Below, piece by piece: positions 4,036-60,508 of a stretch of DNA of 64,000 nt. The DNA comes from Basidiobolus meristosporus CBS 931.73 (Eukaryota; Basidiobolomycota; Basidiobolomycetes; Basidiobolales; Basidiobolaceae). How positions within the stretch are numbered: position 1 is the stretch's first letter; every line of letters begins with the position of its first letter. Both the position numbers and the translations under genes were made by a program. Below the pieces are notes generated by a model. It did not search any database, was not told the origin of the DNA, and saw only the letters and a program-made list of their open reading frames with translations. The stretch covers positions 1 to 64,000 of the forward strand of contig MCFE01000477.1 of NCBI GenBank assembly GCA_002104905.1, given 5' to 3'.

Positions 4036-4403
4036 TGTTATGATCTGACGCTTGAATGTTTAAGTTAGATTAGTTTTTAGTCAAATCAATTAGTATATGT
4101 TTAGGTTATCAGTATATCAGTATTATCTATCAAATCAGTAGCTTTAGTCAGCAAATGAATCAGCAGATCCTTATCAGACAGAAATAGATATATTAAGTAG
4201 GATCTTATTGGGTGGGGATGATGCAATCAGATGAGTCATCAGCCACAACCTACATTAGGAAATACAATTAGTCAGCAATTGATCTGGCAAAATGTATATA
4301 AGGAGCTGCTGGAACCTCAATAAAAATCAGTTCAAGTTTTAGTGAATACAATACTAGCTAAACTCCCTATTCCTCTACAACTCTTATACCAAGACTTGTA
4401 ACA
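4036..4403 (+). repeat. 5' LTR of Ty3-type element
   Basis: The LTR is 368 bp, starts TGTTATGAT and ends CTTGTAACA, and matches 9,678-10,046 closely. It has a TATA-like TATATAAG at 4,295 and an AATAAA-type signal near 4,320. A solo copy of the same family lies at 13,603-13,972. Confidence 0.93.
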
Positions 4404-4404
4404 T

Positions 4405-4414
4405 TGGTAGCAGC
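4405..4414 (+). promoter_or_regulatory. Primer-binding site (initiator tRNA-Met type)
   Basis: TGGTAGCAGC lies two bases after the LTR. It is complementary to the TGCTACCA 3' end typical of eukaryotic initiator tRNA-Met. The same motif follows the unrelated LTR at 55,715. Confidence 0.75.
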
Positions 4415-4461
4415 AATAACCAGAAACCTCCCTCCTGAAGAAAGAAGAAACTACCCTCAAG

Positions 4462-9150: not shown

Positions 9151-9667
9151 GTATATAGACCAAGCACTCTTTGCATGCAGAGTCAGAGTACACAACACCA
9201 CCCAGCAATCACCATTTTACTTAGTGTATGGATGTGAACCAAGGATTCCAGGAGATCTCACACAACCCAAGCTTACAGACACCTTAGAAGATGAACTCAG
9301 TCAGCCAAGTAGACACCAGCAACTGGAACAAAGACGTCAAGAGGCACAGACCAAAGTATCTCAAAGTGCAGAAAAGATGAAGCAGAGATTTGATAAGACT
9401 ATAGCACCAGAAGCATTGACAGTTGGGAACTTTGTATTGCTAAGAAACAACACTTGGAAGAAGTTTGAGCCACAATGGACAGGACCATTCAAGATCATCA
9501 GAGAATGTCCATTTGCAACTTACCAACTGGTGGACAAACAAGGCAATATCCAGGAAGACTTAGTGCATAGGGACAGACTCAAGCTTGCAAGACTTGCTGA
9601 TAATACTGAACCATCAAGATATTGGTATCACAAGAAAAGAGATTCAGGAGAACCCTCTCAACTTTAG
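9143..9667 (+). pseudogene. Integrase C-terminal part, frameshifted
   Basis: This continues the integrase in frame +2 relative to the preceding block, starting around DEYIDQALFACRVR, a stretch that normally follows the core domain without interruption. It includes an integrase C-terminal region with NFVLLRNNTWKKFEPQWTGP, similar to the GPF/Y-type module of Ty3 integrases. A one-base gain or two-base loss near 9,140 explains the break. The stop at 9,665-9,667 lies just before the polypurine tract. Confidence 0.88.
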
Positions 9668-9668
9668 T

Positions 9669-9677
9669 AGGGGAGAA
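9669..9677 (+). promoter_or_regulatory. Polypurine tract
   Basis: AGGGGAGAA directly precedes the 3' LTR, as expected for plus-strand priming. Confidence 0.8.
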
Positions 9678-10046
9678 TGTTATGATATGCCGCTTGAATG
9701 TTTAAGTTAGATCAGTTTTTAGTCAAATCAATTAGTATATGTTTAGGTTATCAGTATATCAGTATTATCTATCAAATCAGTAGCTTTAGTCAGCAAATGA
9801 ATCAAGCAGATCCTTATCAGACAGATAATAGATATATTAAGCAGGATCTTATTGGGTGAGGATGATGCAATCAGATGAGTCATCAGCCACAACCTACATT
9901 AGGAAATACAATTAGTCAGCAATTGATCTGGCAAAATGTATATAAGGAGCTGCTGGAACTTCAATAAAAATCAGTTCAAGTTTAGTGAATACAATACTAG
10001 CTAAACTCCCTATTCCTCTACAACTCTTATACCAAGACTTGTAACA
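9678..10046 (+). repeat. 3' LTR of Ty3-type element
   Basis: The LTR is 369 bp, from TGTTATGATATGCC to CTTGTAACA. It differs from the 5' LTR by a few substitutions and single-base indels. Confidence 0.93.
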
Positions 10047-37308: not shown

Positions 37309-37430
37309 TATATATTATCTTTGGCGAGGGTGGAGTGTACTCATTAGCTTCTAACGACATACTTTCAAGTAAGTGTATTTCGCGTCGAATCCTTCTCATC
37401 TGCGCCAGGAATTTACCCTTTTGTTTCCAG
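37309..37430 (+). promoter_or_regulatory. TATA-like box and probable 5' UTR intron of P-protein copy 1
   Basis: TATATATT at 37,309. A GTAAGT donor at 37,369 and a TTTCCAG acceptor ending at 37,430 define a 62-base intron just before the ATG at 37,439. Copy 2 has no such intron. Confidence 0.5.
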
Positions 37431-37438
37431 GTTTTAGT

Positions 37439-40400
37439 ATGGCTTCCCACATCCGTATGGCCACTCGCCTTTTGGCTTCTCGCTCTACTTTTGCTTTGAA
37501 GTCTCTCTCTACCCCTTTGGTCGTTAGAGCTCTTCCCAAGCCTGCCTTCGCTCCTCGTTTCGCTTCCCGATTGGTCCACACTGCCAAGGCTCCTTCCAAG
37601 GATGTCTTCACTCCTTTGGACTCCTTCCCTCGCCGCCACAACGGCTCCGGTGATCAGGCCATCGGTGAGATGCTCAAGACCGTTGGTGTCAAGTCCATTG
37701 ATGATCTCATTGCCAAGACTGTCCCCTCCTCCATCCGTACCGGCAAGGCTCTGGCCTTGGATAACGGTTTCCCCGAGAGAGAGTTGCTCAAGCGCTTGAA
37801 GGACATTGCATCCAAGAACAAGGTGTACCGCTCCTACATCGGTATGGGCTACACCGACACCGTCGTCCCCAACGTGATCCTCAGAAACATCATGGAGAAC
37901 CCTGGGTGGTACACCCAATACACCCCCTACCAAGCCGAGATTGCCCAAGGTCGTCTCGAGTCCTTGCTCAACTACCAAACCATGGTCACCGACTTGACCG
38001 GCATGGAGATCGCCAACGCCTCCTTGCTCGATGAGGGCACTGCCGCCGGTGAGGCCATGGTCATGTGCTACGCCGCCAGCAGAAACAAGAAGAAGACGTT
38101 CTTCGTCGACGAGAACTGCCACCCTCAGACCAATCGAGGTGATGAAGACCCGTGCCGAAGGTTTCGGCATCAACGTCGTCGTCGGAAACTACAAGACCTT
38201 CGACTTTGAGGCCGCCAAGAACGAAGTCTCCGGTGTGTTGATCCAGTACCCCGCCAACGACGGCATCGTCATTGACTACAAGGAGTTCACCGACAGAATC
38301 CACGGCCTCGGTGGTCAAGTCGTCTGCGCCACCGACCTCCTCGCACTCACCATGCTCAAGCCCCCTGGCGAGTTCGGAGCCGACATCGTCTTGGGTAACA
38401 GCCAACGCTTCGGTGTTCCCCTCGGTTATGGCGGCCCACACGCCGCCTTCTTCGCCTGTACCAAGGACAACGCCAGAAGAATGCCCGGAAGAATCGTCGG
38501 TGTCTCCAAGGATGCCGCCGGCAAGAAGGCCCTTCGCTTGGCCCTCCAAACCCGTGAGCAACACATTCGTCGTGAGAAGGCCACCTCCAACATCTGCACC
38601 GCTCAGGCTTTGTTGGCCAACATGGCCGCCATGTACGCCGTCTACCACGGACCTGAGGGCGTCAAGCAGATTGCCCAAAGAATCCACAACTTCACCAGCA
38701 TCCTCTCCGCTGGAGTCCGTCGCGCTGGCCACACCATCCAGAACGAGACCTTCTTCGACACCCTCACCATCAAGGTGAACGGTGGCTCCGAGGGTGTCAT
38801 CAAGAAGGCCCTCGACAACGGAATCAATCTCCGCCGCATCGATGAGGCCACCGTTGGTATCACCCTGGACGAGACCGTCACCCGCAAGGACTTGGAGGAC
38901 CTCTTGACGGTGTTCTCCGCTGATGGCTCCGTCCCTGACGTTGCCGTTCTCGCCGCCGAGGCCGGGGTCAGCGAGGGCAAGCCAGCCCAGAACTTCCCTA
39001 GCTCTCTTGCCCGTACGTCCAAGTACTTGGAGCACGACATCTTCAACAAGTATCACTCCGAGACCGACATGCTCCGCTACATCCACCACTTGCAGTCCAA
39101 GGACCTCTCGCTCACTCACTCCATGATCCCCCTCGGATCCTGCACCATGAAGCTGAACGCCACCACCGAGATGATCCCAGTCACCTGGCCCGAGTTCGGC
39201 AACATCCATCCATTCGCCCCCGCTGACCAGGTCGAGGGTTACAAGATCATGCTCGACGAGCTCGCCGAGGATCTTGCCGTGGTGACCGGTTTCGACGAGG
39301 TCTCGCTTCAGCCCAACAGCGGTGCCCAGGGTGAGTATGCTGGTCTCCGTACCATCAAGGCCTACCACGAGTCCCGCGGGGAGGGTCAGCGTGATGTTTG
39401 CTTGATCCCCATCTCCGCCCACGGCACCAACCCTGCCTCCGCCGCCATGGCCGGCATGAAGGTCGTCATCGTCAACTGCAAGCCCAACGGCAACTTGGAT
39501 CTCGATGACCTCAAGGCCAAGGCCGAGAAGCACAAGGAGAAGCTGGCCGCTGTGATGGTCACCTACCCGTCCACCTTCGGTGTGTTCGAGGACGGGATCA
39601 AGGATTTGTGTGAGATCATCCACACCAACGGCGGTCAGGTCTACATGGACGGTGCCAACATGAACGCCCAGATTGGCATCTGCTCTCCTGGTGACATCGG
39701 AGCCGATGTTTGCCACTTGAACTTGCACAAGACCTTCTGCATTCCTCACGGTGGCGGTGGACCAGGCATGGGCCCCATCGGTGTCAAGTCTCACTTGGCC
39801 CCCTTCCTCCCTGGCCATCCTTTGGTCAAGACGGGTGGTGACAAGGCCATCGGGCCCATCTCCGCCGCTCCCTTCGGCTCCTCCAGCATCCTTCCCATCT
39901 CCTGGGCGTATGTCAAGCTGATGGGAGCCAAGGGTATCACCGAGGCCACCCACCAAGCCATCCTCAACGCCAACTACATGAGAAGCCGCCTCGAGAACCA
40001 CTACAAGGTCCTCTACACCAACGAGAACGGCATGTGCGCTCACGAGTTCATCCTCGACATCCGTCCATTCGGGGAGACTGCTGGCATCGAGGCCATCGAT
40101 GTCGCCAAGAGACTCCAGGATTACGGATTCCACTCGCCCACCATGTCCTGGCCCGTCGCCAACACCCTCATGATCGAGCCCACCGAGTCCGAGTCCAAGG
40201 CCGAGTTGGACCGCTTCTGCGACGCCATGATCTCCATCCGTGAGGAAATCCGTGCTGTCGAGGAGGGCAAGCAGCCCAAGGTCGACAACGTCCTCAAGAA
40301 CTCCCCTCACCCTCTCGACCGTCTCATGGCCAACGAGTGGACCCATCCTTACTCTCGTGAGCAAGCGGCCTACCCCAAGGCCTGGTTGAAGGAGCGCAAG

Positions 40401-40487
40401 TTCTGGCCCACCGTTTCCAGAATCGACGACGCCTACGGTGACCGTAACCTCATCTGCTCCTGCCCACCAGTCAGCGATTACGAGTAA
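37439..40487 (+). pseudogene. GCV2: Glycine decarboxylase P protein, copy 1, with one-base frameshift
   Basis: This copy encodes the PLP-dependent P protein of the mitochondrial glycine cleavage system, which decarboxylates glycine and passes aminomethyl to the H protein. It is nearly identical to the inverted copy at 41,976-45,023 except in the transit peptide. One extra C in CAGACCAATCG (38,130/38,131; copy 2 reads CAGACAATCG) shifts the frame, so translation from 37,439 stops at 38,209 after about 256 residues. The remaining frame to 40,487 is fully open and keeps the PLP lysine (NLHKTF, about residue 764 in copy 2 numbering) and the glycine-rich loop after it. With no other lesion, this is either a very recent pseudogene or a base-call error. 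Confidence 0.9.
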
Positions 40488-40991
40488 GCTGGCCGGTCGG
40501 TCTCACGTAATAGACACATGGTAATCGGATGACACGAAGACAAATACCATAACGACGACGACACATTCCTCGGAACATTAATCATTACATCACAATATGA
40601 CAATTTATTGTACAGAAACGAACATTCATCCCATCAAGGTCAATAAAACCCATTTATCCCGCATCCACGCTCATGACACCTAACAAATGGGTCGATTTTC
40701 TAAGATTTACAACAGAGTGATGCCATCAGTGAATCCACTTCGAGGCAATGGGACGTGGATCAATTGGCTCATGCCAGGTGAGAGCAATATATTTAGCGAA
40801 TCTCGGATCCATCAGGTTTTGCGATTTGGAACTGATCGTCCCCTTGCGGAAATCCAACCTCAGACCAATCCCTATCCTGGTCCTGATCCTGGCCATCCCA
40901 TTGGTTACTCTGACGTCAAGATGGTTCTGGAACAGAATACGGCTGATGCCAAGGAATTTGGAACTAAACCATAATCGTGGCTTTGGAGGAC
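40488..40991. other. Intergenic region, P-protein copy 1 to synaptobrevin
   Basis: About 500 bases. One open frame (40,687-40,974) has no recognisable motif and precedes the synaptobrevin promoter. A CRE-like TGACGTCA occurs near 40,910. Confidence 0.5.
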
Positions 40992-40998
40992 TATATAA
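40992..40998 (+). promoter_or_regulatory. TATA box of synaptobrevin gene
   Basis: TATATAA, 41 bases before the first base of the split start codon. Confidence 0.65.
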
Positions 40999-41038
40999 GC
41001 GGTCGAAGGGATGCCGAGTGACACGAAATCTCCTCAAC

Positions 41039-41662
41039 ATGTAAGTGTACCCTTCTCCCTTCACCGATCAGCTACCTCCTTGGGACTAACTTGGACATTT
41101 TCAGGTCATACGATCCCAGTGTTTCTCTCAATGACGGCCATCAGTACGATCCGACCTCGACCTCCACGCCCACCTACAACTCCAATCCCCGGGTCGACCA
41201 CGATCGAACGAAGCTCGTGCAGAAGCAAGTGGACGAGGTAGTCAACATCATGCAGGACAACATCAACAGCGTCCTCGATCGGGGCGAGAAAATGGAGAAC
41301 CTGAACTCCAAAGCGAGTAAGTACCGTCATTCGGGATGATCCGTCCCGCGGCATATCACTTACCCATATCCTAGGTGACCTGGAAATGGGCTCGAGGCAG
41401 TTCAAGCGCGGGGCCCACGGTGTACGTAAGAAGATGTGGTGGAAGAACATGAAGATGCGGTTCGCCATTTTGGCAGTCATCCTTCTGATCTTGTTGTGCA
41501 TCATAGGTAAGTGGCGGATCGGCGGATTTGGATTCGTGGCCACCGGATGTATCTAACTCCTTGATAGTTCCAATTATAGTGAAGTCCAAGTCCAACCATA
41601 CTTCCGCACCCTCCCCATCGCCGACACTCACCCCTACTCCTTCTCCCTCACCGACTGCCTAA
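41039..41662 (+). CDS. SNC1: Synaptobrevin/VAMP-type v-SNARE with start codon split by an intron
   Basis: Exons: 41039-41040 (only AT of the start codon), 41105-41316, 41375-41506, 41568-41662. Donors are GTAAGT in all three introns. The 146-residue product has a polar N-terminus, a SNARE helix (about residues 38-97) with the central Arg in INSVLDRGEKMENLNSKA, a basic-aromatic KKMWWKNMKMR linker, a single C-terminal membrane anchor (AILAVILLILLCIIVPIIV), and an unusual luminal tail of about 25 residues rich in Ser, Pro and Thr. v-SNAREs of this family drive fusion of exocytic vesicles with the plasma membrane. It sits in the loop between the two inverted P-protein genes. An upstream ATG at 41,011 is out of frame. 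Confidence 0.93.
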
Positions 41663-41975
41663 CCTATTCTCATGTATATTCACCATGTACCCTATTGACT
41701 CCTGTACTGTCTGTTTTTACACTAATAACAAGCCTATATTATGACATCAGCATGATGATCCCACGGATGATTAATGGCCACTTTCCCCCGAACAGTACCA
41801 ACTGCACTTGGAGAGATCCGATTGGTCGGGAGTCTAACAGTCCTCATTCAGAGAGCTATTTTATTAACTGCTTGGTAACAGTGCATGAGTGGTTGATGGT
41901 AAGCATGCGCGCATGAATAATGGTTGGAAAGGTGCAATGATGGGATTATGATTAGGATGCTGGATACATTCGGGA
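41663..41975. other. Convergent gap between synaptobrevin and P-protein copy 2
   Basis: 313 bases with no gene. Homology between the two P-protein copies does not extend into it. Confidence 0.6.
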
Positions 41976-44900
41976 TTACTCGTAGTCACTGACTGGTGGG
42001 CAGGAGCAGATGAGGTTACGGTCACCGTAGGCGTCGTCGATTCTGGAAACGGTGGGCCAGAACTTGCGCTCCTTCAACCAGGCCTTGGGGTAGGCCGCTT
42101 GCTCACGAGAGTAAGGATGGGTCCACTCGTTGGCCATGAGACGGTCGAGAGGGTGAGGGGAGTTCTTGAGGACGTTGTCGACCTTGGGCTGCTTGCCCTC
42201 CTCGACAGCACGGATTTCCTCACGGATGGAGATCATGGCGTCACAGAAGCGGTCCAACTCGGCCTTGGACTCGGACTCGGTGGGCTCGATCATGAGGGTG
42301 TTAGCAACGGGCCAGGACATGGTGGGCGAGTGGAATCCGTAATCCTGGAGTCTTTTGGCGACATCGATGGCCTCGATGCCAGCGGTCTCTCCGAATGGAC
42401 GGATGTCGAGGATGAACTCGTGAGCGCACATGCCGTTCTCGTTGGTGTAGAGGACCTTGTAGTGGTTCTCGAGGCGGCTTCTCATGTAGTTGGCGTTGAG
42501 GATGGCTTGGTGGGTGGCCTCGGTGATACCCTTGGCTCCCATCAGCTTGACATACGCCCAGGAGATGGGAAGGATGCTGGAGGAGCCGAAGGGAGCGGCG
42601 GAGATGGGCCCGATGGCCTTGTCACCACCCGTCTTGACCAAAGGATGGCCAGGGAGGAAGGGGGCCAAGTGAGACTTGACACCGATGGGGCCCATGCCTG
42701 GTCCACCGCCACCGTGAGGAATGCAGAAGGTCTTGTGCAAGTTCAAGTGGCAAACATCGGCTCCGATGTCACCAGGAGAGCAGATGCCAATCTGGGCGTT
42801 CATGTTGGCACCGTCCATGTAGACCTGACCGCCGTTGGTGTGGATGATCTCACACAAATCCTTGATCCCGTCCTCGAACACACCGAAGGTGGACGGGTAG
42901 GTGACCATCACAGCGGCCAGCTTCTCCTTGTGCTTCTCGGCCTTGGCCTTGAGGTCATCAAGATCCAAGTTGCCGTTGGGCTTGCAGTTGACGATGACGA
43001 CCTTCATGCCGGCCATGGCGGCGGAGGCAGGGTTGGTGCCGTGGGCGGAGATGGGGATCAAGCAAACATCACGCTGACCCTCCCCGCGGGACTCGTGGTA
43101 GGCCTTGATGGTACGGAGACCAGCATACTCACCCTGGGCACCGCTGTTGGGCTGAAGCGAGACCTCGTCGAAACCGGTCACCACGGCAAGATCCTCGGCG
43201 AGCTCGTCGAGCATGATCTTGTAACCCTCGACCTGGTCAGCGGGGGCGAATGGATGGATGCTGCCGAACTCGGGCCAGGTGACTGGGATCATCTCGGTGG
43301 TGGCGTTCAGCTTCATGGTGCAGGATCCGAGGGGGATCATGGAGTGAGTGAGCGAGAGGTCCTTGGACTGCAAGTGGTGGATGTAGCGGAGCATGTCGGT
43401 CTCGGAGTGATACTTGTTGAAGATGTCGTGCTCCAAGTACTTGGACGTACGGGCAAGAGAGCTAGGGAAGTTCTGGGCTGGCTTGCCCTCGCTGACCCCG
43501 GCCTCGGCGGCGAGAACGGCAACGTCAGGGACGGGGCCATCAGCGGAGAACACCGTCAAGAGGTCCTCCAAATCCTTGCGGGTGACGGTCTCGTCCAGGG
43601 TGATACCGACGGTGGCCTCATCGATGCGGCGGAGATTGATTCCGTTGTCGAGGGCCTTCTTGATGACACCCTCGGAGCCACCGTTCACCTTGATGGTGAG
43701 GGTGTCGAAGAAGGTCTCGTTCTGGATGGTGTGGCCAGCGCGACGGACTCCAGCGGAGAGGATGCTGGTGAAGTTGTGGATTCTTTGGGCAATCTGCTTG
43801 ACGCCCTCAGGTCCGTGGTAGACGGCGTACATGGCGGCCATGTTGGCCAACAAAGCCTGAGCGGTACAGATGTTGGAGGTGGCCTTCTCACGACGAATGT
43901 GTTGCTCACGGGTTTGGAGGGCCAAGCGGAGGGCCTTCTTGCCGGCGGCATCCTTGGAGACACCGACGATTCTTCCGGGCATTCTTCTGGCGTTGTCCTT
44001 GGTACAGGCGAAGAAGGCGGCGTGTGGGCCGCCATAACCGAGGGGAACACCGAAGCGTTGGCTGTTACCCAAGACGATGTCGGCTCCGAACTCGCCAGGG
44101 GGCTTGAGCATGGTGAGTGCGAGGAGGTCGGTGGCGCAGACGACTTGACCACCGAGGCCGTGGATTCTGTCGGTGAACTCCTTGTAGTCAATGACGATGC
44201 CGTCGTTGGCGGGGTACTGGATCAACACACCGGAGACTTCGTTCTTGGCGGCCTCAAAGTCGAAGGTCTTGTAGTTTCCGACGACAACGTTGATGCCGAA
44301 ACCTTCGGCACGGGTCTTCATCACCTCGATTGTCTGAGGGTGGCAGTTCTCGTCGACGAAGAACGTCTTCTTCTTGTTTCTGCTGGCGGCGTAGCACATG
44401 ACCATGGCCTCACCGGCGGCAGTGCCCTCATCGAGCAAGGAGGCGTTGGCGATCTCCATGCCGGTCAAGTCGGTGACCATGGTTTGGTAGTTGAGCAAGG
44501 ACTCGAGACGACCTTGGGCAATCTCGGCTTGGTAGGGGGTGTATTGGGTGTACCACCCAGGGTTCTCCATGATGTTTCTGAGGATCACGTTGGGGACGAC
44601 GGTGTCGGTGTAGCCCATACCGATGTAGGAGCGGTACACCTTGTTCTTGGATGCAATGTCCTTCAAGCGCTTGAGCAACTCTCTCTCGGGGAAACCGTTA
44701 TCCAAGGCCAGAGCCTTGCCGGTACGGATGGAGGAGGGGACAGTCTTGGCAATGAGATCATCAATGGACTTGACACCAACGGTCTTGAGCATCTCACCGA
44801 TGGCCTGATCACCGGAGCCGTTGTGGCGGCGAGGGAAGGAGTCCAAAGGAGTGAAGACGTCCTTGGAAGGAGCCTTAGCGGAGTGGACGAATCTGTAGAC

Positions 44901-45023
44901 GAAACGAGGGGCGATAGTGGGTTTCGGCAGAGCTCTAACGACCAAAGGGGTAGAGAGAGACTTCAAAGCAAAAGTAGAGCGAGAAGCCAAAAGACGAGTA
45001 GCAGCGCGCATTTGGAAAACCAT
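41976..45023 (-). CDS. GCV2: Glycine decarboxylase (P protein), mitochondrial, copy 2, intact
   Basis: Single-exon gene, 1,015 residues, normal length for the eukaryotic P protein. Residues 1 to about 50 are a Ser/Arg/Ala-rich mitochondrial transit peptide. Two homologous PLP-type halves follow (about 60-480 and 500-980). The PLP lysine is at about 764 in [20 protein letters not shown]. It catalyses the decarboxylation step of glycine cleavage, feeding one-carbon units to folate. The gene is in tail-to-tail inversion with copy 1, and the sequence match ends exactly at the TAA stop. Codon use is strongly C-ending, as in highly expressed genes, which creates a long meaningless antisense open frame. 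The start at 45,023 fits the TATA box 66 bases upstream. Confidence 0.97.
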
Positions 45024-45088
45024 TTTTGTAATTTGTTATGAAATGTGAAACCTCCCAAGCACGACCCTAACACCACCCGGTAGACTCG

Positions 45089-46252: not shown

Positions 46253-46788
46253 AGACGTAGCTTCTTGTTTAACAAATGATTTAATTCCATAGTAGCAGCA
46301 CGGAGAATAAACAAAATTTAAAGTAATCTGCTCCGCTCGACCCGTTGTATCGGCTCGCATGGTTTATATACTTATTTGGATATATACCTCGGAAATTGGC
46401 CAGATTCGGCTCGCAAATGCTAGGTCAGATTAAATTCTCGAATCCAGATTTCAATTATACCATGAATGCCAAATCGATTGCGCAACGCTATTTCTTTGGC
46501 ATGATTTTCAGATGTCAATGGACGAATCAAGCCCAATCCAAGCATGCACATATCAGATAAATCGATTTCATGTAGCTGGATTGATCTCTGAAGCTTTCGC
46601 CATCCCACGTAAACGACAGTATCCATCTTCGTTCTTGGATAGGTAATTCGCGCGCTGTTCTATACCGAGTACTGCTCTAACCTACACAATGATGATTGGC
46701 CAGCGTGGCCTTGTCTAGAATTGCAATGCCGTGGTCCCGATCAGCTACTTCGCGAATGCCAAGAAACCCATTCTTTGCACAGCAATTC
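46253..46788. other. Intergenic region
   Basis: About 540 bases with 3' signals of the upstream gene and the promoter of the next. No supported gene. Confidence 0.55.
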
Positions 46789-46797
46789 GTATATATA
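46789..46797 (+). promoter_or_regulatory. TATA-like box
   Basis: A TATATATA run about 50 bases before the ATG at 46,842. Confidence 0.6.
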
Positions 46798-46841
46798 CTT
46801 CGCCTAGCAACCGCAGAATAGCCATCAGAACATCAAGCAAA

Positions 46842-47849
46842 ATGCATTTCGCCACTAGAATTTTAGCTACCGCCGCTGCTGCCATGGCAGTTGTATCCGC
46901 TTCTGACTTCTTCCCCTTCGAGTATCCTAGTGATTGCATCACTTCGTGCTCGTTGCAGGCTGGCAAGAAATGCTGGTCTTCCTACACTCAAGATGAGTCT
47001 GATCCCAATTTCATCCAATCCTTCTCTTGCCTTTGCGACTCCAGTAATCCTGGCAATGGAAACTTCATGATGGACAGTCTAAAATGTCTTACCGCAAACA
47101 AGTGTGAAGAGAAGGATATCATGGCCTCTATGGCACTCCAAGGTCCTATCTGTGAATGGTACAACCAACACAAGAATGACCCTAAGCCTACCACCACCGA
47201 GAAGCCTGAACCCACTACTACCGAGAAGCCTGAACCTACCACTACCGAGAAGCCTGAACCTACCACTACCGAGAAGCCTGAACCTACCACTACCGAGAAG
47301 CCCGAGCCCACTACTACCGAGAAGCCTGAACCTACCACTACCGAGAAGCCCGAGCCCACTACTACTGAAAAGCCCGAGCCAACCACTACTGAGGAGCCTG
47401 AAACTTCTACTACCGAGAAGCCTGAACCCACCACTACCGAGAAGCCTGAATCTACTAATACCGATAAGCCTGAGTCCACTACCGCCGATAAGCCCGAATC
47501 TACTACTACCGAGAAGCCTGAGCCCACTACTACTGAAAAGCCCGAACCTACCACCACTGAGAAGCCTGTTGAAACCACCACTTCTGTTGAATCTGCTGAA
47601 ACCCCAAAACCCACTACCACTACTCTTCCCTCCTGTGAGCCAGTGACCGTCACCACCACTGTGTACGTCACTGATGATGCCCCCAAGCCCACAGACACTA
47701 CCTGCGAGCACGGTGCCTACCAATGTGTTGACTCTGGTAAATCTGGAGATTTCACCGTTTGTGTTCACGGTAGCAAGGTCGCCAACTCTTGTGCCCCCGG
47801 TACCGTCTGCAAAAACTATGCAGGCTCCATTGTCTGTGACTGGGCTTAA
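46842..47849 (+). CDS. Secreted CFEM-like, Thr/Pro-repeat, CBM19-like protein (335 aa)
   Basis: I chose ATG 46,842 because it directly precedes a clear signal peptide (MHFATRILATAAAAMAVVSA). The upstream in-frame extension covers the promoter. Residues 21-105 contain eight Cys (CITSC, KKCW, SCLC, KCL, NKC, PIC) spaced much like a CFEM domain. Residues about 117-244 are tandem 8-residue units of the type KPEPTTTE, a likely O-mannosylated stalk. Residues 264-335 form a CBM19-like module ending CDWA. The layout suggests a wall protein that binds chitin through its C-terminus and presents the N-terminal domain on a mucin-like stalk. No GPI signal is apparent. It is paralogous to the gene at 48,600. 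Confidence 0.85.
   Translation: MHFATRILATAAAAMAVVSASDFFPFEYPSDCITSCSLQAGKKCWSSYTQDESDPNFIQSFSCLCDSSNPGNGNFMMDSLKCLTANKCEEKDIMASMALQGPICEWYNQHKNDPKPTTTEKPEPTTTEKPEPTTTEKPEPTTTEKPEPTTTEKPEPTTTEKPEPTTTEKPEPTTTEKPEPTTTEEPETSTTEKPEPTTTEKPESTNTDKPESTTADKPESTTTEKPEPTTTEKPEPTTTEKPVETTTSVESAETPKPTTTTLPSCEPVTVTTTVYVTDDAPKPTDTTCEHGAYQCVDSGKSGDFTVCVHGSKVANSCAPGTVCKNYAGSIVCDWA
47191..47575 (+). repeat. 24-bp coding minisatellite
   Basis: About 16 units of a 24-bp repeat encoding KPEPTTTE variants (Ser, Asn, Asp and Ala substitutions in the last third). Synonymous differences between units suggest repeated unequal exchange. Confidence 0.9.
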
Positions 47850-48546
47850 GCCTCGCATATAAAACCATTCAAATAAACGTGATCCAACTGAGTTCTCCAA
47901 TGCCAAATCGCCTCTAAGCAAGGCAATCAATTCTCACGCGCTGAAATCCAACCTAATTGCCTCAATGGCGGGATATAGCTGGATGCCTTTGCACGATCTC
48001 GAAGTGGCATCGAGGTATGCTGATCCAGATGTAAAGATCCGATTTGTGAATGCCAAAGATAGCCGTCAAATAAAATTTCCCGCTATTGTTAGCATATTCA
48101 GATTTGGGCTTCGTCTAGGTACATGGCGCATCAAGAAAGTCAGTAAGGTATCCTATCGGGTGGCTGGGTCATTTTACTTACACCGGCTTATGCTAGCGAT
48201 TATCTGACTTGGGTACTTGACTTCACCACCAGGAGTACTGGATATGATTGCTTAACTAAAATTAAATCAGTCAGTTGCGGCATAATAGACCGTTTCGGTT
48301 CCGTGGCATGGTCTCGTACTAGACGCTCAAAACGGTTGGCTCCTTCCAGAGTCTGGTTTTCTGTGGGCGTCTGTCCGAACAAATAAGTCCAGCTTCCATT
48401 TAGGTCGTACGTTGCAGTTTTTCTCCGTTCCAGAATCGGTACTGAGAGTGTCCAGCATTTTGTATGGGGACCGAATTGAGGATATGCTTCCAGAGCGTCA
48501 CTGTAAGTTGCACTTGCGACGAACCATTCTTGGCAGTGGTGTGTTG
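47850..48546. other. Intergenic region
   Basis: About 700 bases between tandem paralogues. AATAAA lies near 47,872. Open frames of 80-127 codons have no motifs and are regarded as chance. Confidence 0.55.
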
Positions 48547-48553
48547 TATATAA
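48547..48553 (+). promoter_or_regulatory. TATA box of second CFEM-like/CBM19-like gene
   Basis: TATATAA, 47 bases before ATG 48,600. Confidence 0.65.
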
Positions 48554-48599
48554 ACCCCATGCTTCCATGGGCAAGGTCAGCATCTAACAGTTTAGAAAA

Positions 48600-49916
48600 A
48601 TGTATTTCGCTACCAAGATTTTGGCCACAGCCGCTGCTGCCATGGCAGTTGTATCCGCTTCGGACTTCTTCCCCTTCGAGTATCCTAGTGAATGCATCAC
48701 TTCATGCTCGCTGCAAGCTGGCAAAAAGTGTTGGCCTTCCTACACCCAGGATGAGTCTGATCCCAACTTCATCCAATCCTTCTCTTGCCTTTGCGACTCC
48801 AGTAATCCTGGTCATGGAAACTTCATGATGGACAGTCTAAAATGTCTTACCGCAAACAAGTGTGAGCAGAAGGACATTATGGCCTCTATGGCACTCCAAG
48901 GCCCTATTTGTAAATGGTATAACCAACATAAGAATGATCCAAAGCCTACAGAGAAGCCTGAACCCACAACTACTGAGAAGCCCGAACCCACAACCACTGA
49001 GAAGCCCGAACCCACAACCACTGAGAAGCCCGAGCCTACAACCACTGAGAAGCCCGAGCCTACAACCACTGAGAAGCCCGAGCCTACTACCACCGAGAAG
49101 CCTGAACCCACAACCACTGAGAAGCCCGAGCCTACTACCACTGAGAAGCCCGAGCCTACGACCACCGAGAAGCCTGAACCCACAACCACCGAGAAGCCTG
49201 AACCCACAACCACTGAGAAGCCCGAGCCTACTACCACTGAGAAGCCCGAGCCTACTACCACTGAGAAGCCTGAATCCACTACCACTGAGAAGCCCGAGCC
49301 TACTACCACTGAGAAGCCCGAGCCTACTACCACTGAGAAGCCTGAATCCACTACCACTGAGAAGCCCGAGCCTACTACCACTGAGAAGCCTGAATCCACT
49401 ACCACTGAGAAGCCCGAACCTACTAGCACCGAAGAGCCTGATTGTACAACAGAGAAACCCGAGCCTACTACCACTGAGAAGCCTGAGTCCACTACCACTT
49501 CTGAAAAGCCCGAGTCCACCACCACTGAGAAGCCGAAGCCTACTACTACAAACAAGCCCAAGCCTACCGGCACCGAAGAGCCTGATTGTACAACAGAGAA
49601 ACCCGAGCCTACTACCACTGAGAAGCCTAAGCCCACTACCACTGAAGAGCCTGAGTGCACCACGGAGAAGCCTAACCCTACTTCAACCGTACTCCCCACC
49701 TGCGAGCCAGTTACCGTGACGACCACCGTCTACATCACCACCACCAATCCTGAGCCTACGAGCGCTTCATGTGAGCATGGCACCTACGAGTGCGTAGATT
49801 CCGGCAAGTCCAGAGATTTCACAGTCTGCCTCTATGGCAAGAAGGTCAGAAACTCCTGCTCCACCGGGACCGTGTGTAAGAGCTATGCAGGCTCCATCGT
49901 CTGCGACTGGGAATGA
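48600..49916 (+). CDS. Secreted CFEM-like, Thr/Pro-repeat, CBM19-like protein (438 aa)
   Basis: Paralogue of the gene at 46,842. It has the same signal peptide type (ILATAAAAMAVVSA), the same eight-Cys N-terminal domain with a few substitutions, a much longer repeat stalk (about residues 118-358) and a CBM19-like C-terminus (about 365-438) ending CDWE. The 3' part of the stalk is less regular and includes EEPDCTTEKPEP units that bring in extra Cys, so the stalk may be cross-linked. The N- and C-terminal domains have diverged moderately, while the repeat number differs about two-fold. Likely a surface-exposed, chitin-associated wall protein; the exact role is unknown. Confidence 0.86.
   Translation: MYFATKILATAAAAMAVVSASDFFPFEYPSECITSCSLQAGKKCWPSYTQDESDPNFIQSFSCLCDSSNPGHGNFMMDSLKCLTANKCEQKDIMASMALQGPICKWYNQHKNDPKPTEKPEPTTTEKPEPTTTEKPEPTTTEKPEPTTTEKPEPTTTEKPEPTTTEKPEPTTTEKPEPTTTEKPEPTTTEKPEPTTTEKPEPTTTEKPEPTTTEKPEPTTTEKPESTTTEKPEPTTTEKPEPTTTEKPESTTTEKPEPTTTEKPESTTTEKPEPTSTEEPDCTTEKPEPTTTEKPESTTTSEKPESTTTEKPKPTTTNKPKPTGTEEPDCTTEKPEPTTTEKPKPTTTEEPECTTEKPNPTSTVLPTCEPVTVTTTVYITTTNPEPTSASCEHGTYECVDSGKSRDFTVCLYGKKVRNSCSTGTVCKSYAGSIVCDWE
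48951..49674 (+). repeat. 24-bp coding minisatellite, expanded
   Basis: About 28-30 units encoding KPEPTTTE variants. The 5' two-thirds are nearly uniform. The 3' third has degenerate units and two copies of an EEPDCTTEKPEP insert. Confidence 0.9.
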
Positions 49917-55247: not shown

Positions 55248-55715
55248 TGTTACGAAATAAAAATATACTACCGTAGAAACAGCCCACGTAAAGAAGAATC
55301 CATGCACGTACAATTATGAAACTTGGCAGCAATGCAGCATCACCAATTCCAAAGACATGTACCAGGTTTCAAAAGCACACTGTCACTACTTGTGACACAA
55401 CCAAACTATTAACAAACACTTTATTTACTCCAAAACTACTTTGACCCGTAACATAAAATTTACACCATATATAGCCAAGTGACTAAACCTTAATGCTACA
55501 AAGTTTCAAAGACAGAGCTTAACTAGTGGCCAAGATACAAGCGATCGGAAATCATGCTACGATCCCACGCAAGCCCACAAGATAGTGTTTCAAACTAATA
55601 ACTATAAAAAGTGAACACTTACCTTTAATAAAGGCAGTCGATTTTCACAGTCCGAAATCGGTCGAATCAACCAATCAGAGTTTATCACTCCGATCTGCGT
55701 TTTTAGGACATAACA
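55248..55715 (+). repeat. Probable 5' LTR of a second Ty3-type element
   Basis: The 3' end is firm: ACATAACA is followed after two bases by the primer-binding motif at 55,718. The 5' end is placed at TGTTACG, giving 468 bp with TGTTA/TAACA terminal inverted repeats. TATAAAA near 55,603 and AATAAA near 55,629 fit an LTR promoter and polyadenylation signal. No second copy is in the window. Confidence 0.6.
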
Positions 55716-55717
55716 TT

Positions 55718-55727
55718 TGGTAGCAGC
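55718..55727 (+). promoter_or_regulatory. Primer-binding site (initiator tRNA-Met type)
   Basis: TGGTAGCAGC, identical to the site of the element at 4,405. Confidence 0.75.
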
Positions 55728-55762
55728 GATACATTATCACTGGTAGAAGTCATTAAGAAAAC

Positions 55763-57211
55763 ATGCCCACAGATGAATCTACTACTTGGCAACACACCTT
55801 GGAAGGTATCCTTCAGGCACAGCTAACACTGTGTACCGAAATGAAGAACCAAATGAACAGGCAAGATGCCAGAATCCCTATACATCTAAATAGTTATAGT
55901 GGTAAAACTGGAGAGAATATAACTGCCTGGATTGTACAAGTGGAACAGGTGTTCCAAGCAAAGAATGTCACGGATGACAACAAGAAAATAGCCATCATAG
56001 GAAGTTACTTACAAGGCAGAGCTCAATCATGGTACCAAGGGAAGTTACTACAAGCAAATGCAAGCAACACTTGTGCTTTCCCCAGTTGGGACTCCTTTAA
56101 AACCGAAATCAGAAGCTTCTTCCTCCCCCCAAACTTTCAAGGAACGCTAAGAATTGAGCTAGAAAATCTCAAACAGAAAAATAGTGTATTGGAGTATGTA
56201 CAAAACTTCAAGAACATCCTTGCACAAGTTCTAGAAATGGCAGAAGGAGATAAGATACACTACTTCTTAAAAGGTCTCAAGGGAAGAACAAAAGCAGAAG
56301 TAAGCTACAAGTTCCCCACAACCATAGAAGCAGCAATACACTATGCCATTACCTATGACTCTATACGGGCGACCAATCCACACTTTTACCAGACATCCTC
56401 CCAGAAGAATCAGCACAACCGGCCAGACCACTCGCAGAATACCTCCGAAGGCCCCACTCCCATGGAATTAGACCACATACAGCAGACAGAAGACCCTAGC
56501 AGCTCAAAAACACGGTACAGGTGTCACTACTGTAGAAAACCTGGTCACTTCATCAAAGATTGTAGAAAAAGACAAAGAAATCAGAAAGAAAAATATGAAG
56601 GAACTGCCCGTAAGGACCCACCAGAGCACTCCCAAGCAAATCTAATGGATCAGCCAGGCGCACTGGGAAGCTATGACCATGACTACATCCAAGCTAATGA
56701 AACCTTATATTTGGCCAAGTCAATGACAGCACAAACACAAAACCAATCCACTCCGCTAGTATATCTACCAGTAAAGATAAAAGGAAGATTATACACAGCC
56801 CTTGTGGACTCGGGTGCTACTCACACTTACATTGCCCAAAGAATAGTTAAGGAACTGCAACTCAGGACCACAAGAATCCCTCCTAAAGCAACCACCATAG
56901 CCAACCGAAGCACCATATCCATAGAAGAACAATGTTCAGAACTCCTGGTGGAACTAGGCAACCTTCAAGAAACCTTACAACCATTAGTCTTCCCTCAAGC
57001 CAACTTTGACCTAATATTGGGCAAACCCTGGCATTGGAAACATAATCCCCAGATAGACTGGCGCACAAATGAAGTGCAGACTATTGTAAGACCTACGAAG
57101 AGCCTGCTTAGCGCAGTGGTAGCGCGTCAGTCTCGTAAACTGAAGGTCGCCAGTTCAATCCTGGCAGTAGGCAATTTTTCTTTCCAAATTGAATGTCGAC
57201 CCTTGATATAG
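55763..57211 (+). pseudogene. gag-protease of a truncated Ty3-type element, fused to a tRNA gene
   Basis: The open frame encodes a gag capsid region (about residues 30-220), a CCHC knuckle (CHYCRKPGHFIKDC), and an aspartic protease (LVDSGATHTYIA; then FDLILGKPW). Recognisable sequence stops at about 57,091. The frame then reads through the tRNA-Thr gene and stops at 57,211. RT, RNase H, integrase and a full 3' LTR are all missing. The last 15 bases before the tRNA-proximal CCTA (CAGACTATTGTAAGA) nearly equal the 3' end of the small element at 59,641-59,865 (CAGACTATTGTAACA). Unlike the left compartment, CpG is retained here. Confidence 0.88.
57102..57173 (+). tRNA. tRNA-Thr(CGT), copy 1
   Basis: 72 nt. 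Acceptor stem GCCTGCT/AGTAGGC (one G-U pair), D stem GCGC/GCGC, anticodon stem TCAGT/ACTGA with loop CTCGTAA (anticodon CGT, reads ACG), T stem GCCAG/CTGGC with loop TTCAATC. T5 terminator at 57,175. No intron. Identical to the copy at 60,437. About 45 bases of 3' flank are also similar. Confidence 0.95.
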
Positions 57212-58567
57212 TTGGCTATGCCTGAATTTTCGTATCCGAAAGCTCACTCCAAAAGTGAAGAACGCGGGAAAGGTGTGTTAGTAGAGTCCCCATTTTTATC
57301 TTCAACTGCATCGAAGTTGCATTTACTAAATCACCAGGCACGCTATGATGTACAGAAGTCAGACACTGGTACAAGCTTGCTTTGTGGGACGAAAACCAAT
57401 TCCAACCAGACGATCCATTTTTTTTGATGAAAAATTTTCACCCTGGAAAGTATAAATACGGCACTTGTGGGTGGGTGATTCCTCACGACTGTACTTTACA
57501 GGATTATGTATATAGTACATTCCCAGTCTATGTTTCCCAACAAAGACACTAATACCAAGCTGGTAGATGAGATGTAGTGCGCTGTCCGTAAAGGGAAGTG
57601 TGAGTAGCGACCGATCGGTCCTTCGGGACCATAGGACCTACTCAGTTGATGAACTTGCCGGTTGATTATTCCAACAGCCTGGCGAGGACGGTTTGCACAT
57701 TCTGACAGCTTGTTATTACTCATTTCCCATTCAATACCTCGACATTCAAATATACCAAAAGAATATGCCTTGTCTATAGCGCATATGGATGCAATGCAAT
57801 ATCAATGGAACCTTTATTGATGCGGTGAACACAGGACTAGATGTTGCTACAAAGTCCTCAGTTGATATATAACGAGCTGAATTGGCAATTTTGATTGCAC
57901 ATCAGGAATAGTTGGTGCTATACCTTAATACAAGGAAAACGCAGAAAGGCAAGGTCCGGAAGTTTTAAGCGGCCAATGCAGCCTCATAGTTTTAAAGAGA
58001 CGTTATATATGTTAATAGCTTCGCAGGTTATCACATAGACACAATGTGGTAGTTTAAGTGTTGTGGCTGCTACCTGGAAGTACATCCAAGCTGATATTTT
58101 CGTTAGTGTTGTTCTACCGTTTGTATGGGATGATTTTGATATACTTCCTTCTGGTCAATGATCTATATCACAACTCGCTTATTCGTCTTGTAGAAACAAG
58201 GTGATATATATTTGTGAGGGCTGGTTACCCAGCTCCCCCTATTTGAGGTTTCCTCAGTCTAATACTCTACCTCAGTTAGGTTTTAACTTCGTAGCAATAT
58301 GTTATATTCTGGTCCGTCAAATATTTAAAAGGGACCTGTTTATTGCAAGTTGCTTCGTTCATTTATACTTTTGACATGTTTGATAGTCATATTATTTTAT
58401 CCTAAAGCAGTGCGGCTTTGTTATTCTCATCGAGTCGTGGTAGTGCTAAATTTGTGTGGTACTGGACCCTTATCTAGATGGTTATATGGCGTTGTCTCAG
58501 ATTATCCTTCATGTGATCTGTGCATGTTTCGCTTCTAAGCTTTGATGCATGTTTATCTTTGAACAAC
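57174..58567. other. Interval without a supported gene
   Basis: About 1.4 kb. Contains a perfect GGTCC-TTCG-GGACC hairpin at 57,617-57,630 and TATAAATA near 57,452. No open frame above 75 codons. The stretch near 58,070-58,110 weakly resembles part of the LTR at 59,871. Confidence 0.5.
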
Positions 58568-58795
58568 TGTTATGATATTCAGGTCCGGTTCTCTCACTTT
58601 TGTGGTGTAACAAGGTCTGTCTTTATTTTTAGCGCTGGATCTGCTTTGAACACAATTCCCGATTGCTTGCATAGACTATTGTCTCAAGTTTGCCCAACAG
58701 TGAGCATATATTGAAACATCATCACACGGTGACATGACTATATATGTCGTGATCATCTGTATGTTCTGGTCGGCTTTCAGGCTATTGTAGTAACA
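58568..58795 (+). mobile_element. Short TG...CA element A (about 228 bp) upstream of tRNA-Leu
   Basis: Starts TGTTATGATATTCAGG and ends GTAGTAACA. Similar along its whole length to elements at 58,801, 59,641 and 60,199 (reverse). Target duplication is unclear (CAAC before; CAAC recurs two bases inside the presumed end). It may be a solo LTR or a small non-autonomous LTR element. Confidence 0.75.
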
Positions 58796-58800
58796 ACAAT

Positions 58801-59026
58801 TGTTATGAAATCCAGGCCAGTTCCCGTCCTTCTGTTTGGTGTAACAAGGTCTGTCCTTTATTTTAGCGTAGGATCTACTTTTTATACATTTCTCGATCAT
58901 TTGCATACAACTTGTCTTACTTTAGCCCATCTGTCTTTGATCATCTTTGATGATTTTTGGTGTTGACGCATCTCTATATGCGACAACTTGCTGCCTGTTC
59001 TGGTCGGGATTCAGACTTTCATAACA
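58801..59026 (+). mobile_element. Short TG...CA element B (226 bp) upstream of tRNA-Leu
   Basis: Ends TGTTATGAAA and TTTCATAACA form a 10-bp terminal inverted repeat. CAAT flanks both sides (58,797-58,800 and 59,027-59,030), a 4-bp target duplication. The right copy occupies -9 to -6 of the mature tRNA-Leu gene. Confidence 0.88.
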
Positions 59027-59035
59027 CAATAAATT

Positions 59036-59117
59036 GGTGAGATGGCCGAGTGGTCTAAGGCGCTGCGTTCAGGTCGCAGTCTCTCCGGAGGCGTGGGTTC
59101 GAACCCCACTCTCATCA
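59036..59117 (+). tRNA. tRNA-Leu(CAG)
   Basis: 82 nt with the long variable arm of a class II tRNA. Acceptor GGTGAGA/TCTCATC (one G-U), anticodon stem CTGCG/CGCAG with loop TTCAGGT (anticodon CAG, reads CTG), T arm GTGGG-TTCGAAC-CCCAC. TTTT terminator at about 59,122. Its presence shows CTG is read as Leu here. Confidence 0.95.
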
Positions 59118-59126
59118 TAATCTTTT

Positions 59127-59640
59127 GGTTGAACGATGATGTATTTTGGGTTGTGTAGCTATTGTATTTGCCCTGCTCTAATGATAAGGACCGGTGTATC
59201 TTCCAATTGATGCATAGGATGAAAGCATGTAATGTATATAGTCCTGATATACACAAATATTAAATTTTGATCACCCACTTGAATACAAAGCGCAATGATA
59301 CCGTTTTGCACTTAAGACAGTTCATCTATATCTACATGAAATATAGTAGCTCTTATTGTTTGTATTTTATGATTGCTAGCCTGAATATTGCCGAATGCCT
59401 ATGTCGTGGTTAGGTCATCAGCATCTTCAAACCATCACAGCCGGAGACCTACCCCAGAACCATCCGTCGAGTATTACTAAAATTGGGCAAAATGGCTAAG
59501 ACATGCATATAGCAAATGTAGTTCACCAAAGTATAAATTAGCAAAACACGTTAGAAAATAAAGTAGTTTTTCCTTCCGGCCTCGACCTTTGAACACCAAT
59601 CTCTGGCTAGCACCCTTGGCAGTACATACTACGACACCTA
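59127..59640. other. Interval without a supported gene
   Basis: About 500 bases. No gene. It ends with CCTA, the left target duplication of element C. Confidence 0.5.
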
Positions 59641-59865
59641 TGTTATGATACTCAGGTCCGGTTCTCCTAGTTTTCTGGTGTAACAAGGTCTGTCTTTATT
59701 TTTAGCGCTGGATCTGCTTTGAACATAATTCCCGATTGCTTGCATAGACTGTTGTCTTAAGTTTGCCCAACAGCAAGCATATATTGAAACATCATCACAC
59801 GGTGACATTACTATATATGTCGTGATCATCTGTATGTTCCGGTCAGCTTTCAGACTATTGTAACA
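59641..59865 (+). mobile_element. Short TG...CA element C (225 bp)
   Basis: TGTTATGATACTCAGG to CTATTGTAACA, closest to element A. CCTA on both sides (59,637-59,640 and 59,866-59,869). When the later insertions E and D are removed, this target lies at -10 to -7 of tRNA-Thr copy 2. Confidence 0.88.
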
Positions 59866-59870
59866 CCTAC

Positions 59871-60196
59871 TGTTACGTACTTAAAGAGTAATGTTCTTTA
59901 GAGAGTACAAAACTAGATAACGTGTAGGTTATCTTGTAGATTCGACAGGGTAGTGTAAGAATATCTCTTAAAAGGTTAGAGTGGTGACTTTGTAGAAATA
60001 TATTCAAGCTAATATTCGTTTCTACTACGCTTTTCTGCTTATAACCCAAAAACTTCCCTTTATTTGATTGCTTGTTTGGTATTTATACCTTATTGTGAGT
60101 CTGGTGATTTGTCTTTGATTTGCTTTTCCCTGGCTACTAAGTCGTCTTTGTATGCGTTGATATCACTTAACATCAACTGACTCCTTACTCTGTAAC
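59871..60196 (+). mobile_element. Solo LTR E (326 bp)
   Basis: TGTTACGTAC to CTCTGTAACA with TGTTAC/GTAACA inverted ends. The left flank is CTAC (59,867-59,870). The right flank becomes CTAC once element D and its CACT duplication are removed, placing the target at -9 to -6 of tRNA-Thr copy 2. A different family from A-D. It has no coding sequence. Confidence 0.82.
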
Positions 60197-60198
60197 AC

Positions 60199-60425
60199 TT
60201 GTTATGAAAGTCTGAATCCCGACCAGAACAAGCAGCAAGTTGTCGCATATAGAGATGCGTCAACACCAAAAATCATCAAAGATGATCAAAGACTGATGGG
60301 CTAAAGGAAGACAAGTTGTATGCAAATGATCGAGAAATGTATAAAAAGTAGATCCTACGCTAAAATAAAGGAGAGACCTTGTTACACCAAACAGAAGGAC
60401 AGCAACTGGCCTGGATTTCATAACA
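60199..60425 (-). mobile_element. Short TG...CA element D (227 bp), reverse orientation
   Basis: Reverse complement of element B along its length. CACT on both sides (60,195-60,198 and 60,426-60,429). The left duplicate overlaps the last two bases of LTR E, so D inserted at the E/flank junction after E. Confidence 0.88.
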
Positions 60426-60436
60426 CACTACCAAGA

Positions 60437-60508
60437 GCCTGCTTAGCGCAGTGGTAGCGCGTCAGTCTCGTAAACTGAAGGTCGCCAGTTCAATCCTGGC
60501 AGTAGGCA
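60437..60508 (+). tRNA. tRNA-Thr(CGT), copy 2
   Basis: Identical 72-nt gene to copy 1 with the same immediate 5' context (CCTACCAAGA here, CCTACGAAGA there) and a T8 terminator at 60,510. Confidence 0.95.

Follow-up and report, generated by a model that had tools for sequence, protein, structure and literature searches.

Ty3-like retrotransposons targeted to genes of RNA polymerase III (Pol III) are listed for the Ascomycota and the dictyostelids in a 2018 review (PMC5911963). Integration of Ty3 in Saccharomyces cerevisiae gives a duplication of 5 bp; TFIIIB is contacted by a vestigial chromodomain, which touches Brf1, and the C-terminal domain of the integrase touches TBP (PMC8632968). Tj1 of Schizosaccharomyces japonicus, a self-primed element with long terminal repeats (LTRs), is found 5–11 bp upstream of the mature tRNA, and also close to 5S genes, in a fixed orientation, pointing in the direction of the target gene; in 2015 its authors were not aware of a fixed orientation in any other wild-type LTR element (PMC4600332). 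DGLT-A of Dictyostelium, a Ty3/gypsy element without a chromodomain, has an integrase tail of 32 residues and a primer site 2 bp after the LTR, and it lies before tRNA genes; its primer tRNA was not identified, and relatives without targeting exist (PMC5006619). The DGLT-A window is 13–33 bp; Ylt1, Tyl3 and Tyl6 of Yarrowia lipolytica and beta/Tca8 of Candida albicans are Ty3/gypsy elements close to the tRNA start, and TRE5 of Dictyostelium is a non-LTR element that lies in the opposite orientation 44–54 bp upstream of tRNA genes (PMC5911963). Here we analyze stacks of short LTRs before a tRNA-Leu and a tRNA-Thr gene in a stretch of 64,000 bases (hereafter the window) within a 68,474-base contig of the fungus Basidiobolus meristosporus CBS 931.73, together with related insertions across its assembly (89.0 Mb, 1,311 contigs). 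We conclude with high confidence that the stacks are solo LTRs of several Ty3/gypsy families, produced by repeated and independent integrations that docked on the Pol III complex.

The first stack comprises three LTRs in the order J-A-B, followed by a tRNA-Leu(CAG) gene on the plus strand at 59036–59117 (Rfam, 55.6 bits; the tRNA starts in the window are those of Rfam, and ARAGORN places this one 1 base earlier). The outermost LTR, J (266 bp, 58300–58565, TGTTATATT..TTTGAACA), lies directly before A; it was recognized by its 91% similarity to the LTR at L133, which lies 12 bp before another tRNA-Thr gene, and has 16 matches genome-wide. A is a solo LTR of family A (228 bp, 58568–58795). No clean duplication surrounds it (CAAC to its left, a disturbed right end), and its parent was probably on the minus strand, as suggested by the internal edge CTACCAAA common to B and two family A LTRs at tRNA genes (C1168_50485 and C428). 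B, a solo LTR of family B (226 bp, 58801–59026, parent on the minus strand), points away from the tRNA gene and is flanked by CAAT at 58797–58800 and at 59027–59030, the right copy occupying positions -9 to -6 of tRNA-Leu.

In the second stack, four LTRs in the order K-C-E-D precede a tRNA-Thr(CGT) gene, the second copy of this gene in the window (plus strand, 60437–60508; Rfam, 69.9 bits). K (235 bp, 59402–59636, TGTCGTGG..TACGACA) is outermost and directly before C; it has 10 matches genome-wide and a 74% relative 11 bp upstream of another tRNA-Thr gene (L128). Its left duplication, CCTA, is at 59398–59401, and the CCTA at 59637–59640 serves both as its right duplication and as the left duplication of C, so that two elements used the identical four bases. 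C (family A, 225 bp, 59641–59865, minus strand, 94% identical to A) has its right duplication at 59866–59869, which corresponds to -10 to -7 of tRNA-Thr and overlaps the left duplication of E in the sequence CCTAC (59866–59870). E (family E, 327 bp, 59871–60197, parent on the minus strand) points away from the tRNA gene, and its duplication CTAC is found at 59867–59870 and, divided across D as CT and AC, at -9 to -6. D, a solo LTR of family B at 60200–60425 (parent on the plus strand), is 97% identical to B on the other strand; it is thus inverted relative to B and points toward tRNA-Thr. It is bounded by CACT at 60196–60199, which begins with the last two bases of E, and at 60426–60429, which is -11 to -8 of the gene.

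The duplications of B, C, D and E had been placed at the same positions in an earlier reading of the window by letters alone (the original prediction), and all of them were right upon re-reading. That reading had counted five insertions of two families; there are seven, J and K having been overlooked, and the window LTRs fall into five families (A/C, B/D, E, J and K). Over its first ~130 bp, family B resembles A at about 75%, and J and K showed no similarity to the other window LTRs at an E value of 1e-3. Relatives of both J and K adjoin other tRNA genes; their parent elements were not found. The observation is confirmed, and is larger than first described.

Across the assembly, a first look gave 39, 40, 76 and 65 LTR candidates for families A, B, E and G (the last introduced below) and 2,294 for a further family, F. 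Among 90 scored A, B and E pieces, 44 end at most 20 bp from the 5' end of a tRNA, 12 abut such a tRNA-proximal LTR, and 9 were assigned by rule as the distal LTR of an element placed in this way. Seen from the genes at these LTR-chosen loci, an A, B or E LTR lies 7–14 bp before the mature tRNA in 45 of the 50 tRNA genes scored with Rfam, at 9–12 bp in 39 of them (genes per distance: 7 bp, one; 8 bp, one; 9 bp, six; 10 bp, 14; 11 bp, ten; 12 bp, nine; 13 bp, three; 14 bp, one). Collapsing likely duplicates by their flanks reduces the 45 genes to 35 sites and leaves the peak unchanged. The chance that a random LTR end falls in a 14-bp window before a tRNA is p = 0.0006 if all 3,931 first-look tRNA candidates are taken as real, 63 of which were scored with Rfam genome-wide. 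Families A, B and E between them reach nine anticodons (Leu-CAG, Thr-CGT, Arg-CCT, Arg-TCG, Gly-CCC, Pro-CGG, Pro-AGG, Pro-TGG and Lys-CTT), and family G adds Ile-AAT, Gly-GCC and an intron-bearing tRNA called Asp-GTC by ARAGORN. The peak in insertion distance that the original prediction expected over many tRNA families thus appears at 9–12 bp for the part of the tRNA genes and the best-scored LTRs covered, and the narrow window before tRNA genes of many kinds is that of Pol III-targeted retrotransposons.

All 50 scored genes are above the Rfam cut-off; truncated tRNA copies also exist (L007 and C946). The set omits the partial tRNA at L007 (37.7 bits), the end-cut tRNAs at L048 and L052 and the first tRNA-Thr copy of the window, as well as the overlapping loci L001, L002, L039, L055 and L058. 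A short family A piece, C1045_13537, is included in it and is not among the proximal pieces of the 90, where pieces with less than 60% coverage and shorter than 180 bp were omitted. When duplications were sought across the LTR chain at 44 loci, 12 of them had one of 4 bp, and a single locus, C592, had one of 5 bp (TAGCT); the readable ones include CAAT, CACT, CCTA, CTAC, CAGT, CGAG, GAAG, ATCG, ACCA, ACAG and GTTA. Empty sites were recognized for 3 of the 44 loci: here, joining the two flanks of a solo B LTR recovered a match to a paralogous tRNA-Arg gene without an interruption (C743_42320 against L048, 95% over 216 bp; C231 and C824, which are duplicates of each other, against L053, 95% over 129 bp). 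Eight joined loci gave matches in all; the other five (C1050, C913, C926_5603, C986 and in part their relatives) were rejected as empty sites, since the matched stretches carry LTRs themselves.

A sample drawn from the genes rather than from the LTRs gave the same distance. It comprised 20 tRNA-Thr and 20 tRNA-Leu genes after removal of the LTR-bearing genes already known, with ~330 bp read upstream of each; 4 of the 24 remaining near-identical tRNA-Thr genes and 9 of the 29 remaining listed tRNA-Leu genes were outside it. LTRs of families A, B, E, G, J or K were present at 8 tRNA-Thr and 4 tRNA-Leu genes, and all 12 end 9–12 bp away (the distance at L150 being extrapolated from the LTR match to the LTR end). 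Family G, with a 310-bp LTR, was defined on one of these eight tRNA-Thr loci, L138, where the match is therefore to itself. Both gene types are dispersed with differing flanks: 29 near-identical copies of tRNA-Thr(CGT) are listed, and tRNA-Leu(CAG) has 107 first-look candidates, the best 40 of which were scored.

In 30 further loci picked by tRNA score (235 tRNA entries with repeats, mostly from tRNA arrays), no A, B or E LTR was found, which counts against the notion that all tRNA genes are hit. Family G was present in 5 of the 30, in three of these at 9–10 bp from the tRNA. One G LTR lies 6 bp before a 5S rRNA gene; this is a single case, and with it another kind of Pol III gene is used. The arrays themselves (L010–L038; C964, C1258, C615, C426 and others) are tandem clusters with about nine tRNAs per 3 kb in units of ~4.0–5.5 kb; from the nine anticodons listed above for A, B and E, the 235 entries include Lys-CTT, Pro-AGG and Pro-TGG and no others, and some contigs holding arrays also hold pairs of G elements. 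At L175 and L178 (C791 and C439), G LTRs are followed ~7–10 bp on by sequences that contain B-box-like matches, with A boxes recognized by eye; neither ARAGORN nor Rfam called these sequences, which are possibly decayed or intron-bearing tRNA genes.

Full-length parents with integrases were found for B, E and G. The LTRs are 4,421–4,423 bp apart in four B pairs and 3,471–4,345 bp in three others, 4,775–4,776 bp in E pairs and mostly ~5,068 bp in G pairs. Some of the parent copies read have broken frames; in the B copy on C508, an in-frame stop follows the gag-protease part, and the frame changes between the reverse transcriptase (RT)-RNase H and integrase parts. Miniature inverted-repeat transposable elements and short interspersed nuclear elements were rejected as identities of the short repeats, because LTR pairs around gag-pol were found. 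B, E and G belong to the Ty3/gypsy group (Metaviridae): the integrase is downstream of RT-RNase H (P0004 followed by P0001 in B, P0003 by P0002 in E, RNase H and integrase within P0181 in G) and has H2C2 zinc binding and an rve core (PF17921 and PF00665 over the Pfam cut-off in all three) as well as a GPY/F module (WMGPF in B, WEGPY in E and WVGPF in G). Also as in Ty3/gypsy elements are the TG..CA LTRs (TGTTA..TAACA in all three), the short duplication, the polypurine tract of B (GAAGAAGGGGAAAA beside its 3' LTR, as read from the opposite strand) and the primer site, which matches initiator tRNA-Met over 10 nt in B, 12 nt in G and 10 nt in F, and tRNA-Ile(AAT) over 18 nt in E; in B it begins 2 bp after the LTR. 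Five of nine B and E pairs (three B and two E, at tRNA genes) have identical LTRs and the others are 94.7–97.8% identical, so activity has been recent in part.

All three integrases align with the Ty3 intasome chain 7q5b (E values of 5.6e-29 for B, 1.4e-23 for E and 2.9e-49 for G). The alignments end at chain residues 1432, 1444 and 1444, leaving 45, 23 and 28 residues, respectively. In a tree of 45 integrase rows, B and G are sisters (99/91), E lies beyond a branch with 100/100 support, and F is nearby with weak support, its row being 43% filled. B and E share 42% identity in RT and 28% in integrase; the homologs of the E integrase are distant (best 37%), and relatives of the B lineage occur in Rhizopus, Lichtheimia and Amoeboaphelidium records. 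The parents are thus Ty3/gypsy elements of at least two lineages, B/G with an initiator tRNA-Met primer site and E with a tRNA-Ile one, so that targeting to the Pol III site arose, or was kept, in two lineages.

The families differ in the direction of insertion. The strand of each element was taken from copies that contain gag and integrase, which are on the strand opposite to the LTR query in the full-length copy used for B and in the C21 copy used for E. All 27 proximal E LTRs, which collapse to 22 sites, point away from the tRNA (two-sided p = 5e-7 for the 22 sites), as do 7 of the 8 stacked E copies, the one exception being on C477. B is mixed (10 away and 5 toward; 8 and 3 as collapsed sites), and so is G with its relatives (6 away and 9 toward at 15 sites, by our own reading of the loci). 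Since B and G insert in both directions, the bias of E is not forced by the site.

Family F serves as an internal control. Its copy in the window is a Ty3/gypsy element with interrupted frames on the plus strand (4036–10046, LTRs at 4036–4403 and 9678–10046), and no tRNA is near it in the window. The F integrase is 51% identical to that of B over 309 aligned positions. None of 20 stretches sampled around F copies contains a tRNA (12 LTRs with ~137 bp on each side and 8 outer flanks of four pairs); the copies sampled are those that match best (98%), the sequence flanking a single LTR on one side may come from the interior of the element, and the sample would miss any tRNA that lies beyond a stacked LTR. 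The pattern that the original prediction had set against its own claim, an even spread without excess at Pol III genes, is therefore that of the sampled F copies and not that of A, B, E or G.

We propose a model for how the stacks arose, which starts from what can be read in the DNA: the position, part of the duplications, the stacking order, the parents, their Ty3-related integrases, the one 5S match and the F stretches free of tRNA. The integration complex would dock on the Pol III initiation complex, most likely on TFIIIB (TBP-Brf1), and insert the element at about the Pol III start, 7–14 bp upstream of the mature RNA, through cuts staggered by ~4 bp. The body would then be lost as the two LTRs recombine, with one LTR staying in place. 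Promoters of tRNA genes are internal; the gene should therefore survive each insertion, presumably still transcribed, and stay a target, which would explain the stacks. The next element would enter within the same few bases, and the stack would grow outward by successive insertions. Because tRNA and 5S genes are used at similar distances, the positions of the LTRs point to the Pol III start complex as the probable target.

Several points weigh against this account. Placement at the start site rests on the distance to the mature tRNA end. The scored sets were the best 40 of 76 candidates for E, 40 of 65 for G and 40 of 2,294 for F. By the script's rule, 25 of the 90 LTR pieces have no recognized Pol III gene alongside; three of these have tRNA pieces in the flank, a fourth has a tRNA-like B box, and the B copy at 23833 of C878 stands in a stack behind a G LTR that adjoins a tRNA-Leu gene. 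In the gene-based sample, 28 of the 40 genes are without an LTR of families A, B, E, G, J or K, and the flanks read of the G copies C16 (both sides), C1306, C1, C197 and C216 (one side) contain no tRNA. The predicted 4-bp duplication holds at the 12 of 44 loci given above, one locus having 5 bp; a clean duplication is present in only 13 of the 44, the other 31 being stacks, full-length edges or without one. Lastly, the chromodomain is one of the main contacts in the structure of Ty3, and Pfam found no chromodomain family in B, E or G at E values up to 1, a negative at the level of sequence that is to be read with the divergence of Ty3's own chromodomain in mind. Together with the Ty3 match that stops before the chromodomain, this indicates that the tether is probably in the integrase C-terminal domain, in the short tail or elsewhere.

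The alternatives fare considerably worse. If integration were untargeted, selection might have spared only the copies in the harmless gap before tRNA genes; genomic copies are always integration filtered by selection, and the targeted families are few (39, 40, 76 and 65 first-look candidates). F, however, persists with its 2,294 first-look candidates and no tRNA in the 20 sampled stretches, so insertions elsewhere in the same genome are tolerated, and the three B and two E pairs with identical LTRs at tRNA genes have left little time for selection. The peak at 9–12 bp is also sharper than expected from selection on a non-coding gap, and we consider this explanation improbable. Even harder to credit is one old insertion copied many times with its tRNA gene by segmental duplication. 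Plain duplicates do exist (C102 twice, C356/C40/C1238, C1168/C1045 and C231/C824), and the two tRNA-Thr copies of the window share 130 bp at 93%, but 35 sites remain after flank collapse of the 45 genes, and these differ in tRNA species, 4-bp duplication and LTR family, with B in both orientations. Just as little can be said for recognition of a DNA sequence motif instead of the Pol III machinery, which would account for the fixed position relative to the gene but not for readable duplications that share no obvious motif by eye, for a 5S gene used at a similar place, or for later insertions at the same spot once the upstream DNA had become LTR. On these points we rejected segmental duplication alone, selection alone and sequence-motif targeting.

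Compared with the described systems, the proposed Pol III-docked integration in Basidiobolus resembles that of Ty3 in several respects: the elements are Ty3/gypsy with short LTRs, as are the sigma LTRs of Ty3, they lie at about the Pol III start of tRNA genes, and the integrases are related. The primer of Ty3 is initiator tRNA-Met, and B and G have a primer site of this type. Unlike in Ty3, the duplication is 4 bp instead of 5 bp at 12 of the 13 loci where it can be read, B, E and G appear by sequence to be without a chromodomain, and E has one predominant orientation. The comparison with Ty3 made in the original prediction is thus supported for position and integrase, and departs from Ty3 in the last two features. 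With Tj1 they share the window before mature tRNAs, the use of a 5S gene and, for E, a fixed orientation; unlike Tj1, whose transcription follows that of the Pol III gene, E is directed away from its target and has an 18-nt tRNA-Ile primer site, and B and G insert both ways. DGLT-A is matched by the chromodomain not being found, the short integrase tail, the primer site 2 bp after the LTR (B) and an apparently untargeted relative (F), the differences being the 7–14 bp window, the fungal rather than amoebozoan host and the identified primer tRNA; DGLT-A is a precedent for targeting without a chromodomain. The Yarrowia and Candida elements, all in the Ascomycota, can be compared by description alone. 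Like TRE5, E runs opposite to the tRNA; unlike TRE5, it is an LTR element with an integrase. The Basidiobolus elements are therefore Ty3-like in behavior and Ty3/gypsy by membership, and are not Ty3 itself.

A more detailed version of the model is offered tentatively, with somewhat less than even confidence. Two Ty3/gypsy lineages, with Met and Ile primers, would each reach the Pol III start without a chromodomain; the E intasome would be nearly locked in orientation with its 5' LTR toward the gene, a mirror image of Tj1, B and G would enter either way, and F, far more numerous, would have lost the tether or never had it.

No Pol III-gene targeting was reported for Basidiobolus, the Mucoromycota, the Entomophthorales or early-diverging fungi in the titles and abstract beginnings of the open-licence papers listed by literature searches; the Entomophthora muscae genome paper treats a Ty3 expansion, and no tRNA targeting is mentioned in its passages covered (12 of 16 places). 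As far as these searches show, the host group, the sharing of a single site by two lineages of the same genome and the orientation bias of E are new. Basidiobolus is far outside the Ascomycota, and six LTR families (A, B, E, G, J and K) with two integrase lineages (B/G and E) meet at one spot, which suggests that the Pol III niche has been reached repeatedly and perhaps easily. The contrast between related integrases that are targeted (B and G) and apparently untargeted (F) makes the Pol III-finding part of a chromodomain-less integrase directly testable; if the two lineages are indeed chromodomain-free, comparison of the B, G and F integrases could locate a new tether to the Pol III complex. 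The orientation bias of E bears on how the intasome is held.

Other features of the window may be mentioned briefly. The first tRNA-Thr copy (within 55249–57173) follows a truncated Ty3-like gag-protease frame at 55757–57092, before which a primer site of the same kind, TTTGGTAGCAGCG, is found at ~55715. At the join, 57077–57096 is identical in 19 of 20 positions to the LTR-A end plus flank of the second copy (59851–59870), which suggests a homology-mediated joining. A U3 small nucleolar RNA gene (57485–57710; Rfam, 66.7 bits) lies between this copy and the LTR stacks. At 37373–45035, a stretch of less than 8 kb contains two genes for glycine dehydrogenase (P subunit) that run in opposite directions, the left one being split over two frames near 38,000–38,200. 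At 46719–49916, two adjacent secreted-protein-like genes contain long PEPTTTEK repeats of unequal length, for which the repeat finder TRF gives 16 and 29 copies of 24 bp.

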